A DNA stretch of 64,000 nt. Origin: Methanosarcina sp. Lineage in GTDB: Archaea > Halobacteriota > Methanosarcinia > Methanosarcinales > Methanosarcinaceae. Made by a program: the position numbers and the translations under genes. The notes beneath the pieces were generated by a model that saw only the letters and a list, made by a program, of their open reading frames with translations, did no database searches and was not told the DNA's origin. Every line of letters starts with the position of its first letter. Within the stretch, counting starts at the first letter, position 1. The stretch spans positions 62,001-126,000 of the forward strand of contig PLUB01000060.1 in NCBI GenBank assembly GCA_003164755.1, written 5' to 3'. Of this stretch, positions 1-8,015 are shown in pieces.

Positions 1-930
1 ATATCTGATATTTCGTTTTTTGTTTCGATTAGGTAGTCTATGAGTGCCGCTCTTAATATCCAAACATCATCAATTGATTCTTTTAATTTCTCAATTTCTG
101 TATTTGATATTTCTTTTTTTGTTTGGTTCAATAATTTAATGAGATCTGTTTTTATTTTCTGAATCTGTACATCTGTGAATTTTCTTTCTATTCTTGTATA
201 CTTTATAATTTCGTCTACTCTTTCTTTATTTAATAGTTCATCTTTTGTTTCTTTTAAGTATTCTCTGCCTTCTTCAGTACATTGTTTTTTAAATGTATCC
301 CGCCAAACACATACTCTGAATATTTTATCGATATCGAAGTTTATTCCAGATATTTCCATACAGTTATTTGGATCCTGATCATATTTCTGATCCGTTAAAC
401 ATTCCCCGCTTTCTAAAAATCCAATAAGTTTTTTAATATCATTTATTAATTTATTATTGTCAGTGGTCAGAAAAAGTCTGAAAAATTAGGGGGACAACTG
501 TAATTTTCCCTTAAATGATTTCTCTATTTTTTCAAAGAGTGTAACTTTCGTATGTTCCACCACATCCTTCTGATTTGAATTGTAAGTTGGATGTAAACCG
601 ATGGCGGAAGTTCTTGTAGACTTAATAAACCAGTTTTTATTTGCACATTCCCCAAATCTACTATTCAAAAACTCGATATCATTTGAACCATAAATTAGAT
701 CAAAATGCTCGTGAAATATAGTTTCACAAATGGAATCATTTTTTTGCATTTTTGATATTAAGTCTGGATACTTTTCTAGTATCTGAATTAGATTCTGAAT
801 ACTAAAAACAATTGAATTTAATGTTGAGTCGTTATTAGATTTACCTAATTTTATCTCCTTACCGTCAATCCACCCTTTTTCTTTGAGTTTATCAAAATCG
901 TCAGAAGTCTTTTACTGGCATCTTTCTTTG
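1..930 (-). pseudogene. Broken unknown gene at the left edge, one in-frame stop
   Basis: Reading leftwards from about 925, one frame stays protein-like to the window edge. Its segments include KEKGWIDGKEIKLG, then a Met at 749 and FHEHFDLIYGSNDIEF, then LRAALIDYLIETKNE near position 20. It is interrupted by a TAA at 486-488, and the frame resumes directly after the stop (RLFLTTDNNKL, then KKLIGFLESGE). No start codon or ribosome site is seen on the upstream side, and an in-frame TAA lies at about 930, so the 5' end also looks lost. The downstream part is rich in Lys, Glu and Ile and probably helical. I do not recognise the family. A nonsense mutation in a formerly single gene is the simplest reading; two adjacent genes is the alternative. 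Confidence 0.5.
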
Positions 931-1099
931 CTACAACCTCGATAGTCGGAAACAAGAGCACCTAAGTCTATAACTCCCTAGTTAAATTCTTTATGCTCCT
1001 CTTCCGGCAATAGTCACTTACTATTTCTGTCACATCCTATGAGTTGGTTTTTCAGGTAGGAGGTATCACCCCTAGTTCAGAGCCGTAATAAAACTGGAA

Positions 1100-1975
1100 C
1101 TAGTGTTCTTTTTCAATTACTACTGAAGGTTTAATGCCAATTTGTATTAGGCCACTTCCAAGAATCATAATACCACCAATCAATTGTAACATCGAAAGTT
1201 TTTCTGAAAAAAAGATAAAGCCTAATATAGTAGCAGTTATTGGCTCTATATATAATAATGTCCCACATTTAACTATCTCTAGATTTTTCAACGCTAAGAT
1301 TAATAAGCTTAATGCCAGAAAGCCATGAATAAAGCCAATTGAAATTAAATATGGTATATCATGCAAGACAAATCCTGATTTTCCGATAATAAGAAATGGA
1401 AGAATTGCCAAAGTTCCAAAAATGAATTGAAAAAAAGATCGGCTAATTAAAGGCGTATCTTTATCAATTTTTCGATTAGCTATAAAATAAAAAGAATATA
1501 ATATAGCAGATGAAATTCCAAGTACATATCCGATATTTATAGATTTAAATTCAAAATTGAATTTTAATAGCAAAACAGTACCTGAAAATGCAATTAAAAT
1601 TAAAGCTATATTTAAAGGTCTAACTCGTTCGTTCAGAAAAAAATATCCTAAACCTGTTCCAATAATAGGACCAAGATAAAGAAGTATAACCGCAGTCGAT
1701 AAAGTGGTATTTTTTATAGCTTCTATGTAAAATAAAATTGATAGTGATTGAAATATTCCACTCAAAATGATAGTCAAACTAGGCTTCTTTTTAATATCCT
1801 TATATCTTCCTGAAAAAAACAGCAAAACTGTCAAAAATATGAGACCTAGAAATAGACGTGAGAATGTTATTATTTGAGCACTTGACGAAACATTTCGTAC
1901 AAATAAACCCAAAGTCCCCATCAAAAATGCTGCAGTAATCGCAGATATAGATCCTAATAAATCCTTGTCTGTCAT
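1100..1975 (-). CDS. EamA/DMT-family membrane transporter
   Basis: This 291-residue protein has about ten hydrophobic helices in two halves (roughly residues 8-140 and 150-285), the internal duplication typical of the drug/metabolite transporter superfamily. Recognisable family features are the N-terminal AAFLMGTLGLFVR, the YLGPIIGTGLGYFFLNERV segment closing the first repeat, and the matching YIEPITATILGFIFFSEKL in the second. Members export metabolites, amino acids or drugs across the cytoplasmic membrane; the substrate cannot be read from the sequence. The length is usual for the family and the ATG start fits the first helix. It stands alone on the minus strand between a broken gene and an unknown membrane protein, so context gives no clue to substrate. 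Confidence 0.88.
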   Translation of the reverse strand: MTDKDLLGSISAITAAFLMGTLGLFVRNVSSSAQIITFSRLFLGLIFLTVLLFFSGRYKDIKKKPSLTIILSGIFQSLSILFYIEAIKNTTLSTAVILLYLGPIIGTGLGYFFLNERVRPLNIALILIAFSGTVLLLKFNFEFKSINIGYVLGISSAILYSFYFIANRKIDKDTPLISRSFFQFIFGTLAILPFLIIGKSGFVLHDIPYLISIGFIHGFLALSLLILALKNLEIVKCGTLLYIEPITATILGFIFFSEKLSMLQLIGGIMILGSGLIQIGIKPSVVIEKEH

Positions 1976-2088
1976 AAGTTATTTTAATCTTTTTTTTACA
2001 AATACTACCACAAGAATGTATTTTAAATTTTCCATACCCTAAGGTTTTTAATCACGTTTTCCAAACCCTATAGTTTTTGATACACTAT

Positions 2089-2994
2089 TTACTCATTGAA
2101 TCTTGGAAGGCTATCATTATTTGAGATCTTAAAAGTCTGGAAATCATTCGAAGCATCATTTGCATTTTTAGCTGCTTTGTTTTTGTCATATTTTTCCTTA
2201 ACATACTGATATAAGGAAATGCACATCGGACCTTGTTCCCAATAAAAATGAGGAAAGCCTGTTCCGGTTGATTTTGTGAGAAACATGCTTGAGTAGGCAT
2301 AAATTGGTTTTTCATTCCTTGTTACAATATAGCATGGAACACCGAGTAAATCATTGTATATAATAATATCTAAATATCCTAAAGCATTTTGTGAAGTAAG
2401 AACGTCCCTACATTTCTCAAAATCTTTAATGAACAATTTTAATTCACTGATATAACTATCTGTCGTATAAAGACCTCCAATTTCCTGTGCTCTCAATGAA
2501 CAAAAAGGAGAGGATGGGTCAAGTACTAACATATTTATTATCACATCTCGCTGGATTGCATTTTTTACATTCTCTATCCATCTTTTATGACCAGGGCAAT
2601 AAGTATCTAACCACCAAAGGGTGTCACCTGGAAGAAGGTCATCAAATAGTTTTTCAATAGGTAAAAAATCATATATACGACTTAAACCAAATTTCCTAGT
2701 TTGCATCATTTCTGTATCGATTTTTTCATCGAAAAGTTTACTGACTTGGCGAACAAAAGATTCCCTGCTAATTTTTTCAAAGAAAAATTCCCGAAGAATT
2801 TCAAGAGGTATGGCAATAACTAGAAAGGATCCCACCAAGTCTAAAAATTGTGAGAGAATTCCTTGTTTCTCAAATATTCTACCTAGCAACAAGAATGAAA
2901 CACCGAGCAAAAAAATGGTAGTAATTACTAGCCAGTGAAGTGCAGGCAGATTAGGCATCTTGTAGTCCTTAAAAATTTCTTTCGTATTTATCAT
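2089..2994 (-). CDS. Unknown protein with two N-terminal membrane helices and a large soluble domain
   Basis: The 301-residue product starts with two hydrophobic helices (about residues 17-38 and 50-66) and then a charged linker, EILREFFFEKISRESF. The rest is soluble, presumably cytoplasmic. The soluble part has alternating strand/helix character: DTLWWLDTYCPGHKRW, then NVKNAIQRDVIINMLVLDP, then LGYLDIIIYNDLLGVPCYIV. This arrangement recalls phospholipase-D-like folds that have lost the HKD motif, as in some sensor or effector modules, but that is an inference from pattern only. I see no catalytic motif. A tail of about 30 residues rich in Asn, Lys and Asp ends the protein. It has no operon partner. 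Confidence 0.6.
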   Translation of the reverse strand: MINTKEIFKDYKMPNLPALHWLVITTIFLLGVSFLLLGRIFEKQGILSQFLDLVGSFLVIAIPLEILREFFFEKISRESFVRQVSKLFDEKIDTEMMQTRKFGLSRIYDFLPIEKLFDDLLPGDTLWWLDTYCPGHKRWIENVKNAIQRDVIINMLVLDPSSPFCSLRAQEIGGLYTTDSYISELKLFIKDFEKCRDVLTSQNALGYLDIIIYNDLLGVPCYIVTRNEKPIYAYSSMFLTKSTGTGFPHFYWEQGPMCISLYQYVKEKYDKNKAAKNANDASNDFQTFKISNNDSLPRFNE

Positions 2995-3637
2995 ATAGCC
3001 TCTGTTTCGAAAATCAAATCATTTCTACTACTAATGACTTGATAATTGCCTATAAATGCTTAAACTGTCATTTAATGAATTAGATTCATGGATTAAGCAT
3101 AATAAGACAATTTCTATATTTATTTTGTTAATTAATATTAGTTTTTACAAAGATACTGAGAACAGTTCTGTTGTAAAAAATCCTAATATTGTACCAAAAT
3201 TTTATTTTACTCAATGAAAATAAAAAAGCAGAATATTTCTTAGATAATATCCAGATTTAGGCAACTATTTCCAAATGACTTATTTAATAATAGCTTCTAC
3301 AGAAAAAATCGATTCAAGTCCAATCTGTCCTTTTCTAATCAATTTCCTGGTAGGCTGGTATGTTTTGTTATAGGAGTTTAAGAATCTTCTAATTAGAGTA
3401 GGTTTTCGTTAATCAAATATATAGTTAAATAATATTTATTTTAATAAATATCTTATATTCATGGATAAAAATACAAAAAAATAAATAGAATTATGTTAAA
3501 GTACTATAAACCTTGAAAATCATTCTTTGAAAAATAAGGCAATTTTTTTGATGATTTAAAGGTTTTTTTCTAATATTAAATTTAAAACGACTGAATAAAG
3601 ATAAAATTATAAAATATTAAGTCAAAGGAGGAAAATA
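2995..3637. other. AT-rich spacer before the peptide gene
   Basis: About 640 bp without a convincing reading frame on either strand. It is strongly AT-rich towards its right side, and the promoter of the peptide gene at 3638 presumably lies in the last 150 bp. I recognise no repeat or RNA gene here. Confidence 0.5.
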
Positions 3638-3871
3638 ATGACACAAGAAAGTGTGAGAAAAATTATAGCTAGATTGATAACAGATGATGCTTTCAAAAAA
3701 GGCTTCCAAGTAAATCCACAATTAATTATTCAACAATCAGGTTTTGACGTATGTGAACAAGAGATTATAGCTCTGTCGAAAATTAAAAATGAGAATTTTT
3801 GTTTAAATGAAAGAAGTAACTTTGTGACTAATTCTCTAGATCTTGAAACTTTCTCTAAAATAAATACGTGA
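3638..3871 (+). CDS. Putative RiPP precursor peptide with NHLP/Os1348-like leader
   Basis: A 77-residue peptide preceded by a strong ribosome site (AAAGGAGG, 3624-3631). Residues 1-48 look like the short leaders of ribosomally made, modified peptides of the Nif11/NHLP/Os1348 kind: a start of the form xQESVRKIIARLITDDAFKK, then VNPQLIIQQSGFDV, then a closing helix EQEIIALSKI. In such leaders the pattern is S-V-x-x-I-x-R, D-x-x-F, N-P, G-[YF]-D/x-[LV] and E-x-x-A-L. The remaining 29 or so residues would be the core; they contain one Cys (ENFCLNE), several Asn and Ser, and the NF...NF pattern. The next gene is a radical SAM enzyme on the same strand 450 bp away, the usual partner of such peptides. 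The family assignment is by eye; the chemistry is unknown. Confidence 0.6.
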   Translation: MTQESVRKIIARLITDDAFKKGFQVNPQLIIQQSGFDVCEQEIIALSKIKNENFCLNERSNFVTNSLDLETFSKINT

Positions 3872-4324
3872 AAAATGATAGAAAAAAATATCTAGTGTAC
3901 TGATTCCAAAATGATCATCATTTGGGAAATTCTCAAATATGCCAGTTTTGGTAGATCGTGATCTTTGGAATCGAAGCGCTATTAATTATAAAATTAATAT
4001 TGATCGATTATAAAGCTTTTGACTTTATCAGAAAGACTTCTATTTATGTACTAACATTTCAAAAACTAAAGTGTCGCATAAATTTCCAAATATATATATT
4101 TGATATAGTAAATTTTGCTTTATTTAAAATAAAGCTTTTTAATAAGCGGCACTATATTATTTTTCTTAGTAATTATGATTTTGTTTAAAATATGCGAGGA
4201 CTATATATTTTAGAAATAATACAGTTTCATATCTAATTAATAATATATTTAGAAACTTGTTAAACAAGACGGATAATTAAGACAACATTATAAAAAACAT
4301 ATTTTAATTAATTATTAATAAATT
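3872..4324. other. Spacer between peptide gene and radical SAM gene
   Basis: About 450 bp, very AT-rich. A 76-codon open frame at 3958-4188 has low-complexity Ile/Phe/Lys composition and no ribosome site, so I do not call it a gene. A duplication of the peptide gene is not visible. The radical SAM gene may have its own promoter here. Confidence 0.5.
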
Positions 4325-4339
4325 ATGGCAGGGAGAAAA

Positions 4340-5455
4340 ATGGAAAAAATTGGTAACAAGATTACATATGCCAGAAAAAATATCTCTACATTGGAATCAA
4401 AAAGAAGTCGTAAAGATTTAATGGAAAAAAGAGAAAATTATTTTTCACAATTAGGGATCATTCTTACTGGAAAATGTAATATCCGTTGCCGCCACTGCAT
4501 GTATAATTGTCAGCCAGACACAAAAATGGAACTTGGCTGGCTAGTGATTGAACGCTTAATTAAAGAAGCTTCTGCAATCGAAAACATAACACAGATTCAC
4601 TTTACTGGAGGTGAACCTTTCCTCGAATTAGATACCCTTTTTAAAGCTGTAAATTTGTGTAAGCTACTTGGCCTGAAAGTATCTGTAGTAACTAATGGTT
4701 ATTGGGCTGTTAGTGTAAATGTTGCGAAACAAATATTAGAAAAACTTGATGGGTTAACACTTCTTGAAGTCAGTACAGATTCTTTTCATCAAGAGTTTGT
4801 GTCTATAGATAGAATCCGGAACGTCATTTTGGCATGTAACGAATTGGGAATTAACAAATGTGTTCGTGTCAGTTTTCTCAATGATCCAGTCTCAGAAATT
4901 GAAAACATAAAGAAGCATCTTTCACCTGTTGAGGGTCTATATGAATTAAGCCAACAACCTGTTTTACCAATAGGAAGGGCAGCATCACATATTAACTTAG
5001 ATTTAATTTTTTCTTATGATCCAAAAGGTGTATTCTGTAGAGGCGCTGACTTCCCTTTAATAATCAGCAATGGAAATGTTTCGGCATGTTGCGGTCCTTC
5101 AGTTTCTTGGCTTGGTGATCATCCTCTCTTATTGGGAAACATATTCAAACAAGGTTTAAAAGAAATTAGTGATGCAGCGGATCTTAATCCTATAATACAT
5201 ATCCTCAGGCTATGGGGTCCTAGCGAATTGGTTAATTTAGTTAAAGAACAATCTGAGAAAGATTGCTGTTTTTTCACCCCACCAATGTTGGATGAAATAC
5301 AGAATATATGTTCTCTTTGTAAGTTTATTATTGCTAATCCGAAATATTCCAGGTTACTACAGCGCGCTATTCTAAACCCAGTGGTTGTGTATGAGTTAGC
5401 TGTTAGGCGTATGATAGAACTTGGGGAAATATCCATGATTTTGAAAGAGGTATAA
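4340..5455 (+). CDS. Radical SAM enzyme with SPASM-like C-terminal cysteines, RiPP-maturase candidate
   Basis: The longest frame starts at 4325, but the ATG at 4340 has GGGAG at a good distance and is preferred. Numbering from the longer form (376 residues), the radical SAM motif CNIRCRHC supplies Cys51, Cys55 and Cys58 for the [4Fe-4S] cluster that cleaves S-adenosylmethionine. GGEP (95-98) is the SAM-binding motif and VVTNGYW is the family strand 4. The C-terminal part holds Cys238, Cys255, Cys256, Cys314, Cys315, Cys329 and Cys332, with GNVSACCGPS and LLLGNIFKQGLKEI matching the layout of SPASM/twitch domains that bind auxiliary clusters. Such proteins commonly modify peptide substrates, and the leader-type peptide gene just upstream fits that. 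The modification itself (thioether, C-C bond, epimerisation) cannot be inferred. Confidence 0.8.
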   Translation: MEKIGNKITYARKNISTLESKRSRKDLMEKRENYFSQLGIILTGKCNIRCRHCMYNCQPDTKMELGWLVIERLIKEASAIENITQIHFTGGEPFLELDTLFKAVNLCKLLGLKVSVVTNGYWAVSVNVAKQILEKLDGLTLLEVSTDSFHQEFVSIDRIRNVILACNELGINKCVRVSFLNDPVSEIENIKKHLSPVEGLYELSQQPVLPIGRAASHINLDLIFSYDPKGVFCRGADFPLIISNGNVSACCGPSVSWLGDHPLLLGNIFKQGLKEISDAADLNPIIHILRLWGPSELVNLVKEQSEKDCCFFTPPMLDEIQNICSLCKFIIANPKYSRLLQRAILNPVVVYELAVRRMIELGEISMILKEV

Positions 5456-6110
5456 ATTTATTTTATAAAAACTTGTGTTGTTGCAAATTATTTATGGAAC
5501 ATAATACTTTACCAATTTCTCATCAGTATCCTTCTCTTTAAACTTTCATTTATTTTCTTTTTATTTTTATTTATTCTATTCGTTCACGAAGGAACTTCAA
5601 TTCTGGTAGTAATAAGTCGCACACATTCAGGTCCATCCTGCATGAAAGGCTCAAGATGATAACTGTCCCAGACATCAGCAATCAAATTCTAACCACTTCG
5701 ATTTATCGTTATTTTGTGATCGCCATTATTAAATAGATATAGAGTTACAGCTAAATGTTCATAATCCACTGGAGCTACTTTTGGGCAATTAATTGTTACT
5801 CGTTCATCAACTCCTACAACTGCTCTAATGTCAAAGCAAAAAAGATCCAAAAAACGTTGAGAAATAATATTTGCTTAGAACTATTGACAATATTTTTAGA
5901 GTCTCTTCCAGAATCTGCACTTGTTTTTCAAGCGTAAATACGCTGACGAACTCTCAGCTTTCTAATGTATTCAAAACTATGCGAACAGTTGACATAAATT
6001 TATATCGTTTGACATTTAGGCAAGAAGTATTAGCAAAATCTAAAATAGCTTTAGGATTTACGCACTTGAGACCCAAAATCAAGTACAATGGATTATATGG
6101 TTTATTTTAA
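5456..6110 (-). pseudogene. STAND/NB-ARC ATPase fragment and other decayed coding sequence
   Basis: No intact gene lies here. On the minus strand at 5590-5690 the frame reads LIADVWDSYHLEPFMQDGP followed by ECVRLITTRIEVP. This is the Walker B and sensor region of NB-ARC/STAND ATPases, whose usual form is L-x-V-D-D-V-W ... L-x-T-T-R. Stops flank it on both sides and no P-loop survives. Between about 5700 and 5960 the same strand gives other protein-like pieces (VGVDERVTINCPKVAP, LEKQVQILEETLKIL) that may be from the same or another dead gene. STAND proteins often act in signalling or antiviral defence; this copy is a remnant. Confidence 0.4.
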
Positions 6111-6221
6111 AGTTTTTCTTTGTACAATTGAAAGTTTAATGATATTGATTTTTCAATCCAACTTCGTAATTCCCAAGCTTAATAACGAAAAATAACTTAG
6201 AATTCCGGAAGGTAAATTAGC

Positions 6222-7229
6222 ATGAAACAGCATTGTATAAAGATCCCCAAAAAGAAAGGAGAATATGTAAGGAAAATGCTACTTGATTTTGAAATCCTTG
6301 ATAATTCACTAAAGATAGGCATGGATGGAACATTTCTTTATATCCCCCTTTCTAGAGAACCTACAACTGGTGAATTGAATAATCTTCCTAAAAAAACAGA
6401 ACTTATTGACTTCTATTTTGAGCTCCAGAAAAAAAAAACTATCCTTAAAGACCTCCTGGATTTCAGTCCCACATATGAAGTCATCGGAGATATTGCCCTT
6501 CTGGAAGAGAACCTTGATCATCAGAAAGCTTCAAGAATCGCAAACTTTCTCATCCAGACCCAACCTAATATAAAAACTGTACTCAAGCCCCTCACCCCTG
6601 TAACCGGGGAATTCAGGCTCCGGAAATTTGAAATTACAGCAGGTGAGCCAAAAACAGAAACCATTCATCGGGAATACGGATGTCGCTACAAAGTGGACCT
6701 TGCAAAGGCTTATTTCACTCCACGCCTTTCTACTGAGCGCTCTAGAATTCTCTCATGGATTAAGGAAGGGGATACCATTATAGACATGTTTGCTGGTGTA
6801 GGCCCTTACAGCATCCTACTCGCAAAAAGTAAAAAACCTTCAAACGTAATAGCAATTGATAAAAATCCTGATGCAGTGTACTACCTGAAAGAAAATATAA
6901 CCCTCAACTTAGCAAAAAATATCGAAGCAATAGAAGGCGATTCCAGGGAAGAAGCAAAAAAGTTTGCAAACACTGCAGACCATGTGATTATGAACCTCCC
7001 CCATAGTGCCCACGAATTTCTTGACTCTGCCATTCTCCTTACAAAGCCGGGAGGAATTATACATTACTACGGAATAGCTCCTGAAGATGATCTCTTCGAA
7101 AGCTATATTAAACTCATACACTTAGCTGCTGAGGGAACAGGAAAACATATAAATATTCTGGAGAAAAGAGTGGTACGTTCTTATGCTCCTCACCAGTATA
7201 ATATATGCATTGAAGTCAAAATAATTTAA
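6222..7229 (+). CDS. trm5: tRNA (guanine37-N1)-methyltransferase, archaeal Trm5 type
   Basis: The 335-residue protein transfers methyl from S-adenosylmethionine to N1 of G37 in tRNA, which prevents frameshifting and starts wyosine synthesis in tRNA-Phe. Key features are the N-terminal D1-like domain (about 1-75), the EFRLRKFE ... AGEPKTETIHRE region (130-151) and VDLAKAYFTPRLSTERSRI. The SAM motif I is DMFAGVGPYS (188-197), AIDKNPDAV holds the acidic ribose-binding residue, and NLPHSAHEFLD (258 on) is the Trm5 form of motif IV. The C-terminal RVVRSYAPHQYNICIEVK also matches archaeal Trm5b. A ribosome site GGAAGGT lies at 6207-6213. The related Taw2 aminocarboxypropyl transferase is the main alternative, but the tail and motif IV favour Trm5. 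It lies just upstream of a tRNA gene. Confidence 0.88.
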   Translation: MKQHCIKIPKKKGEYVRKMLLDFEILDNSLKIGMDGTFLYIPLSREPTTGELNNLPKKTELIDFYFELQKKKTILKDLLDFSPTYEVIGDIALLEENLDHQKASRIANFLIQTQPNIKTVLKPLTPVTGEFRLRKFEITAGEPKTETIHREYGCRYKVDLAKAYFTPRLSTERSRILSWIKEGDTIIDMFAGVGPYSILLAKSKKPSNVIAIDKNPDAVYYLKENITLNLAKNIEAIEGDSREEAKKFANTADHVIMNLPHSAHEFLDSAILLTKPGGIIHYYGIAPEDDLFESYIKLIHLAAEGTGKHINILEKRVVRSYAPHQYNICIEVKII

Positions 7230-7316: not shown

Positions 7317-7388
7317 GTCGTCGTGGCTTAGTGGTATAGCGGCTGATTCGTAATCAGCAGAGCGAGGGTTCGAGTCCCTCCGGCGACT
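7317..7388 (+). tRNA. tRNA-Thr (anticodon CGT)
   Basis: A full cloverleaf is visible. The acceptor GTCGTCG pairs with CGGCGAC, the D arm is GGCTTAGTGGTATAGC, and the anticodon stem GCTGA/TCAGC encloses TTCGTAA, giving anticodon CGT, which reads ACG. The T arm is GAGGG-TTCGAGT-CCCTC. The discriminator is T, as usual for archaeal tRNA-Thr. There is no intron. Confidence 0.95.
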
Positions 7389-8015
7389 CTTACCTACTTT
7401 TGTTTAATGTACTCTTTTTTGCGGAGTGGATAAATAGAAATCGTATGAAACATCCGGATGAAGGCATCGATTTTTTAAATTATATAATTTCGAAGGAAGA
7501 TAACTTGATAGGCGTAATAAAGGCCAAATATAACAGTATTATTTAGTTAAAATAGCAATAAAGAAATTTGTAACTCAAAGACCTTCCATCATACCCATAT
7601 TTTTGATTAATTTAATTGTTGGTTATCGCTCAGCCCTGGATATCCTGGAAGAGGATATATCCTCAGAGAAAATAGAAATGATATAAACAAACCCTCATGA
7701 ACCGCTGTCATACGCATGAAACATGAAAAACTTTCATTATCCCTTTCCCACTTTACGAGTGCACACTCTATTTGAATACTGTCAAAAGCTGAATTTATCC
7801 CAAAATTTCCTATACCTGTTTTCCACTATTCGTGAAAATCTGGGGGAAGCATACTATAACCAGAGCGAAAACAGAAAAGCAATAGAATCAAAAGCTTTGT
7901 CAGTATTCAAATAGAGTGTGCACTCGTAAAGTGGAATAACATATACAGAAAAGTTTTAGCCGTTATATCCAAGTTTCGAAGTTTTGGAAGAGGATTTTAA
8001 TGACTGATTTTACTT
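7389..8015. other. Spacer between tRNA-Thr and pyrH
   Basis: Apart from the inverted-repeat element at 7748-7934 I see only short protein-like scraps, such as SALDILEEDISSEKIEM near 7630-7685, and no start, so probably the end of a lost gene. No RNA gene is recognised. Confidence 0.45.
7748..7934. mobile_element. MITE-like element with 34-bp perfect terminal inverted repeats
   Basis: The left end CCACTTTACGAGTGCACACT at 7748 is repeated exactly in inverted orientation at the right end (7901-7934), and the perfect match continues for 34 bp, to GAATACTG. Imperfect complementarity (CAAAAGCT/AAAGCTTTG) extends it further inside. The element is 187 bp long, and its interior has a meaningless 63-codon frame. 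No clear target duplication is seen next to the ends. The arms can form a long hairpin in RNA or single-stranded DNA. The perfect arms suggest recent mobility or selection for the hairpin. Confidence 0.75.

Follow-up and report, generated by a model that had tools for sequence, protein, structure and literature searches.

The stretch analysed in this study (the window) comprises 64,000 nucleotides of the Methanosarcina sp. contig PLUB01000060.1 (assembly GCA_003164755.1, positions 62,001 to 126,000 of the forward strand), and it carries a gene for a 77-residue peptide that is followed on the same strand by a gene for a radical S-adenosylmethionine (SAM) enzyme (Table 1). Both open reading frames (ORFs) are intact, have good ribosome sites, and lie where a preliminary description of this DNA, made from its letters alone, had placed them. 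The genes are considered here as the candidate precursor and modifying enzyme of a ribosomally synthesised and post-translationally modified peptide (RiPP).

Table 1. Features at the peptide/enzyme locus and its surroundings, in window coordinates; negative positions lie left of the window.
Feature	Position	Strand	Evidence or remark
Shine-Dalgarno site AGGAGG of the peptide gene	3625..3630	+	Read from the sequence, limits approximate; shuffles
Candidate RiPP precursor, 77 aa	3638..3871	+	NCBIfam and Pfam leader matches; profile search
AT-rich intergenic gap	3872..4324	.	Rfam, promoter and terminator scans gave nothing; no other ORF has a convincing ribosome site
YydG-like radical SAM enzyme	4340..5455	+	TIGR04078, PDB 8ai1, column comparison
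Right part of the ~9.3-kb island	1..6175	.	blastn: four relatives for both borders, six for the right one
Tyrosine recombinase of the island	-1671 to -460 (G000:C39:60329-61540)		Phage_integrase, E 5.2e-20
Trm5b, tRNA (guanine37-N1)-methyltransferase, core flanking gene	6222..7229	+	Right island border, outside the pair
tRNA-Thr	7317-7389		After Trm5b

The peptide gene and its leader

The strong ribosome site ascribed earlier to the peptide gene is upheld, with GGAGG standing 7 nt ahead of the ATG of the 77-residue ORF (AAAGGAGGAAAATAATG). When the 1330-nt segment was dinucleotide-shuffled 2000 times, only 11 of the shuffles had an ORF of even 20 codons behind GGAGG, and 23 had, on the peptide strand, an ORF of 77 codons or more that began with ATG. 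The leader motifs named in the preliminary description are all present (S5-V6, I9/I10, R12, D16-x-x-F19, N26-P27 and E42-x-x-A45-L46), with the correction that the first stretch is spaced S-V-x-x-I-x-x-R and not I-x-R.

The description had also read the N-terminal half as an NHLP/Os1348-type leader, and this reading is supported by several searches. The NCBIfam model NF038399 (Os1348 family, NHLP clan) matches residues 4-54 with an E-value of 1.6e-8 and 34.5 bits, short of its cut-off of 40 bits, which a sister Methanosarcina peptide (genome G005) passes with 41.2 bits. Weaker NCBIfam matches are given by TIGR03793 and TIGR04509, and Pfam PF14407 (Frankia_peptide) matches with E 8e-4. When a profile built from the window peptide and five archaeal relatives was searched against the PDB, it retrieved nitrile hydratase alpha chains (best 4ob1, E 4e-12), the 85-residue chain 6lk7, deposited as nitrile hydratase alpha (E 1.3e-7), and the NHLP leader 8tb1 (E 9e-5). 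We presume that 6lk7 is the Os1348 structure to which PMC7726476 and PMC12636437 refer, although its record is not named as such. The window peptide alone gave no significant PDB match to nitrile hydratase alpha or to solved NHLP leaders. Its matches to DBP5 (E 0.004) were judged to be chance and were not returned by the profile search.

Because of the NCBIfam, Pfam and profile matches, residues 1 to ~51 are assigned as the leader, and these same comparisons place the ORF as a distant member in the Os1348/NHLP leader clan. The ~26 C-terminal residues (from about 52 to 77; ENFCLNERSNFVTNSLDLETFSKINT) are the presumed core, which holds a single Cys and matches nothing. Two aromatic residues spaced 8 positions apart, a feature of YydF, occur in this core and also in 16% of shuffled cores, and were not used. 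An AlphaFold2 prediction from a two-sequence alignment had a mean predicted local distance difference test (pLDDT) score of 49.

A YydG-like radical SAM enzyme

The enzyme is 371 residues long from ATG 4340 and 376 from ATG 4325; the former, with GGGAG ahead of it, is probably the start rather than the latter, which has no ribosome site. Residue numbers given here are counted from ATG 4325. The top NCBIfam model is TIGR04078 (YydG radical SAM peptide epimerase), which aligns with residues 43-339 (E 9.4e-38, 130.4 bits) and leads the other matches by 72 bits, and the top PDB match is YydG/EpeE, the epipeptide epimerase of B. subtilis (8ai1, E 2e-22, residues 39-335). EpeE possesses two [4Fe-4S] clusters and takes the C-alpha hydrogen from its target residues, with Cys223 as the proposed hydrogen-atom donor (PMC8326336). 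The Cys layout of the window enzyme is that of EpeE: the radical SAM cluster motif is C51-x3-C55-x2-C58, and the seven extra C-terminal Cys counted in the preliminary description are found at 238, 255, 256, 314, 315, 329 and 332. Of these, C238, C255, C329 and C332 align with the auxiliary-cluster region of EpeE and are the presumed ligands, while column comparison puts C256, the second Cys of the CC pair, at the position of Cys223. In five archaeal relatives (G006, G091, G200, G393, G475) the donor-Cys equivalent is replaced by Ile, and C256 is therefore not merely a fixed residue of the fold. Mutation of C223 in EpeE is reported to bring loss of epimerisation or breakage of the peptide.

The earlier label of SPASM-like stands in part. 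The Pfam SPASM domain matches partially, at 18.4 bits against a cut-off of 21.5, and the C-terminal half is, from its sequence, a one-cluster, twitch-like version and not full SPASM; the nearest characterised relative is YydG/EpeE, which suggests a specific chemistry that the label did not name. No PqqD/RRE-like (RiPP recognition element) domain was found by Pfam, and the Cys motif begins after only ~50 residues.

The closest homologue of the enzyme comes from the same genus (G024, 50% identity), on a contig that ends inside the gene. A tree was built from 21 YydG-like proteins, with two SPASM proteins as outgroups; in it, this fragment and the window enzyme share one deep branch (support 100/99), apart from the Bacillota YydG proteins (100/100), and the deeper forks are unresolved. 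The equivalog cut-off of TIGR04078 was passed in none of 393 genomes of the phylum. Since the window enzyme misses this cut-off and has a deep branch of its own, it is YydG-like, and not YydG, as far as sequence comparison can place it.

Prokaryotic viperin models match residues 47-158 of the enzyme at about 1e-16, as would be seen if it were a viperin-like antiviral protein, or another radical SAM protein that acts on nucleotides, with the peptide beside it incidental. This match, however, is of the radical SAM core alone and lies 72 bits under that of TIGR04078, the viperins in the PDB reach E ~3e-4 as opposed to 2e-22 for EpeE, and the C-terminal auxiliary-cluster Cys match those of EpeE, all of which makes a viperin-like role very improbable.

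Linkage of the genes and the proposed reaction

A scan of 238 related archaeal genomes from the class with NF038399, blind to the neighbouring genes, gave 12 Os1348-type matches; at 11 of them, the window included, a radical SAM gene lies no more than about 3 kb away. The exception is a 262-residue probable membrane protein (G096). These genomes hold 28-54 radical SAM genes each, so that chance adjacency per gene is 0.06-0.12 (about 0.09) and adjacency in 11 of 12 cases has a probability of about 1e-9; with near-identical loci merged by eye, 8 of 9 are adjacent (P about 4e-7). The comparison of neighbourhoods that had been proposed as a test of the pairing therefore did not refute it. The closest precedent is a locus in G050, whose Os1348-type peptide (NF038399 E 1.8e-6) is separated by 20 bp from the YydG-like gene downstream, which in turn adjoins a SPASM gene, and weaker NHLP-like leader proteins stand beside YydG-like genes in G100 and G042.

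It is quite likely, then, that the 77-residue peptide and the YydG-like enzyme are a minimal archaeal RiPP pair, precursor plus modifying enzyme. That they are unrelated neighbours, the enzyme having another substrate and the peptide being either a remnant or a small protein that has some separate function, would agree with the gap between the genes and with their shared position on a mobile island. This seems improbable given two intact ORFs with good ribosome sites on the same strand, and a linkage of Os1348-type to radical SAM genes in this class that far exceeds chance and includes one case with a YydG-like enzyme.

In the mechanism proposed, the peptide would be a precursor in which a helical Os1348/NHLP-type leader (the N-terminal ~51 residues) precedes the core (the last ~26). 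By homology to EpeE, the radical SAM cluster of the YydG-like enzyme would make a 5'-deoxyadenosyl radical, the C-alpha hydrogen of one or more core residues would be abstracted, and Cys256 would return a hydrogen on the opposite face, turning L-residues into D-residues. Leader removal and export, if any, would depend on genes elsewhere. The presence of both genes, their family relationships, the conserved catalytic Cys and the recurrent linkage of leader and radical SAM genes are the observed grounds from which we infer that peptide and enzyme act together, that the reaction is epimerisation and that core residues are altered. Epimerisation as the chemistry of the pair, supported by homology and by retention of the Cys, appears slightly better than an even call, and we likewise lean, narrowly, towards the full reading of a minimal RiPP pair with EpeE-like L-to-D epimerisation of the core.

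Another chemistry on the core, with a C-C, C-S or other bond such as a thioether at Cys55, would still make the genes a RiPP pair. Within the YydG-like superfamily, which is deep and has poorly resolved branching, one subgroup lacks the donor Cys, so the chemistry may well vary; in addition, the radical SAM enzyme beside most other Os1348-type peptides of the class is a full SPASM or a B12-type one, and several of these peptides carry Cys in the C-terminal core. The window enzyme, on the other hand, retains the donor-Cys equivalent, and the core has one Cys only. Sactisynthases are recognised by a full SPASM domain and an N-terminal RRE, the latter found in those described in PMC8326336, and Pfam found neither in the window enzyme. 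We regard a different chemistry as unlikely, though well worth keeping in mind.

Several points weigh against the reading as an epimerised RiPP pair. The enzyme, at 130 bits, does not reach the TIGR04078 cut-off of 300 and falls outside the Bacillota YydG group of the tree, and the equivalent of EpeE Asp210 is insecure, as HMMER and MAFFT put D242 of the window enzyme differently and Macrococcus YydG has Glu. Between leader and core there is no GG, GA or GS (double-Gly type) cleavage motif, the core does not resemble YydF, and among 60 relatives the peptide has one weak match (G005, E 0.005). The genes are 453 bp apart, which leaves a shared transcript as a presumption, and no peptide with a ribosome site was found in the ~920 bp upstream of the G024 homologue, a point that also favours unrelated neighbours, although the G024 contig ends inside that gene. 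The preliminary description was right that no transporter or protease gene adjoins the pair, and a C39 peptidase was not found in the genome either, which is 92% complete.

Genomic setting and comparison with known systems

The pair lies on an island that extends from about -3120 to 6175, between genes for TFIIB and Trm5b, with homology to relatives resuming at 6176. The relatives compared have Trm5b close to a TFIIB-type transcription factor gene and a LysE-type gene, and Trm5b occurs in 29 of 31 genomes of the genus. Besides the peptide/enzyme pair, the island contains the tyrosine recombinase, an EamA transporter and an unknown protein. The pair is accessory and was probably acquired. On the minus strand of 5456-6175, between the enzyme and Trm5b genes, possible remnants of degraded ORFs would fit a mobile or acquired segment in decay. 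Searches with the enzyme alignment gave no match in phage records and, in viral contigs, mostly partial matches that were confined to the radical SAM core and too distant to be of use.

Other archaeal loci provide a wider view of both families. The G005 peptide that passes the model cut-off (L014:4961-7023) ends in SGCSYHLCG and is accompanied by a 450-residue SPASM-type enzyme and a polyprenyl-synthase-like gene. Three Methanosarcina genomes share an NHLP-like peptide of ~100 residues that ends in GCSCWQGEGIT and adjoins a 494-residue radical SAM/SPASM enzyme (L053:6050-8199, L054:4290-6450, L055:1998-4113). Among YydG-like loci, one in G355 (L031:4495-8594) has an Ala/Val-rich peptide of 86 residues, an enzyme with an N-terminal extension, a membrane protein and an ABC ATPase in one run, an epipeptide-like archaeal operon with a possible exporter of its own. 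In G091 (L019:6297-8705), two tandem paralogous peptides of 70 residues lie directly upstream of the enzyme with Ile for the donor Cys, and next to it a 231-residue protein with repeated EPVH motifs lies beside SPASM-like and B12-type radical SAM genes. On a Halocatena salina plasmid (L084:3440-5041), a YydG-like enzyme is preceded by a protein of ~177 residues whose C-terminus is hydrophobic and Ala/Val-rich, and a related haloarchaeal enzyme is near an ABC transporter gene (G532, L030). A small peptide, a YydG-like enzyme and a B12-type radical SAM enzyme occur together in G100 (L022:2299-5486), where the peptide has a weak NHLP-type leader match, and in G097 (L021:390-3742).

The leader family and the enzyme superfamily are each already known. 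A published report of an NHLP/Os1348 leader with a YydG-like enzyme in an archaeon was not found in the titles and abstracts searched, a set that omits most subscription journals, and this is weak evidence of absence. We tentatively suggest, at rather less than even confidence, an archaeal class of epimerised RiPPs in which an EpeE-type epimerase is combined with an NHLP-type leader in a methanogen lacking a dedicated exporter, the product perhaps being intracellular. If true, such a class would join parts known in bacteria from separate systems (epipeptides; NHLP/proteusin precursors), would show recombination of leader and epimerase modules, and would extend ribosomal peptides containing D-amino acids to methanogenic archaea. 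The YydG-like enzymes with varied small partner ORFs across several archaeal lineages form a wider and apparently little-described set; with the subgroup that has lost the donor Cys, what divides epimerisation from other radical reactions at C-alpha can be tested directly.

The window locus resembles the epipeptide system (epeXEPAB, or YydFGHIJ) in that its enzyme is homologous over the radical SAM core and the C-terminal half, has the CxxxCxxC motif, the auxiliary-cluster Cys and the Cys223 equivalent, and follows the precursor gene on the same strand, much as in Macrococcus, where an annotated YydF epipeptide precursor lies directly upstream of YydG. It differs in its archaeal host, in a leader of Os1348/NHLP and not YydF type, and in having no peptidase or ABC transporter genes, on comparison with the Macrococcus loci. 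With proteusins and their PoyD, OspD and PlpD epimerases it shares the combination of a nitrile-hydratase-like leader and a radical SAM epimerase, the window leader being shorter than theirs. PoyD is characterised by a single cluster, a C-terminal RRE and no homology to EpeE, whereas the window enzyme is homologous to EpeE and has auxiliary-cluster Cys. Proteusin and epipeptide epimerases remain active when the leader is deleted. The PosA and PflA precursors of Pseudomonas have the same type of leader, although they are modified by HEXXH and nitroreductase-type enzymes rather than radical SAM enzymes and their core is unrelated; as at the window locus, they have no double-Gly site and no dedicated peptidase in the cluster (PMC12636437). 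The G050 locus, from a genome of the same order, has a second (SPASM) enzyme, an Ala/Ser-rich core with two Cys and an enzyme from a distant branch, but shares with the window an Os1348 leader peptide directly upstream of a YydG-like enzyme.
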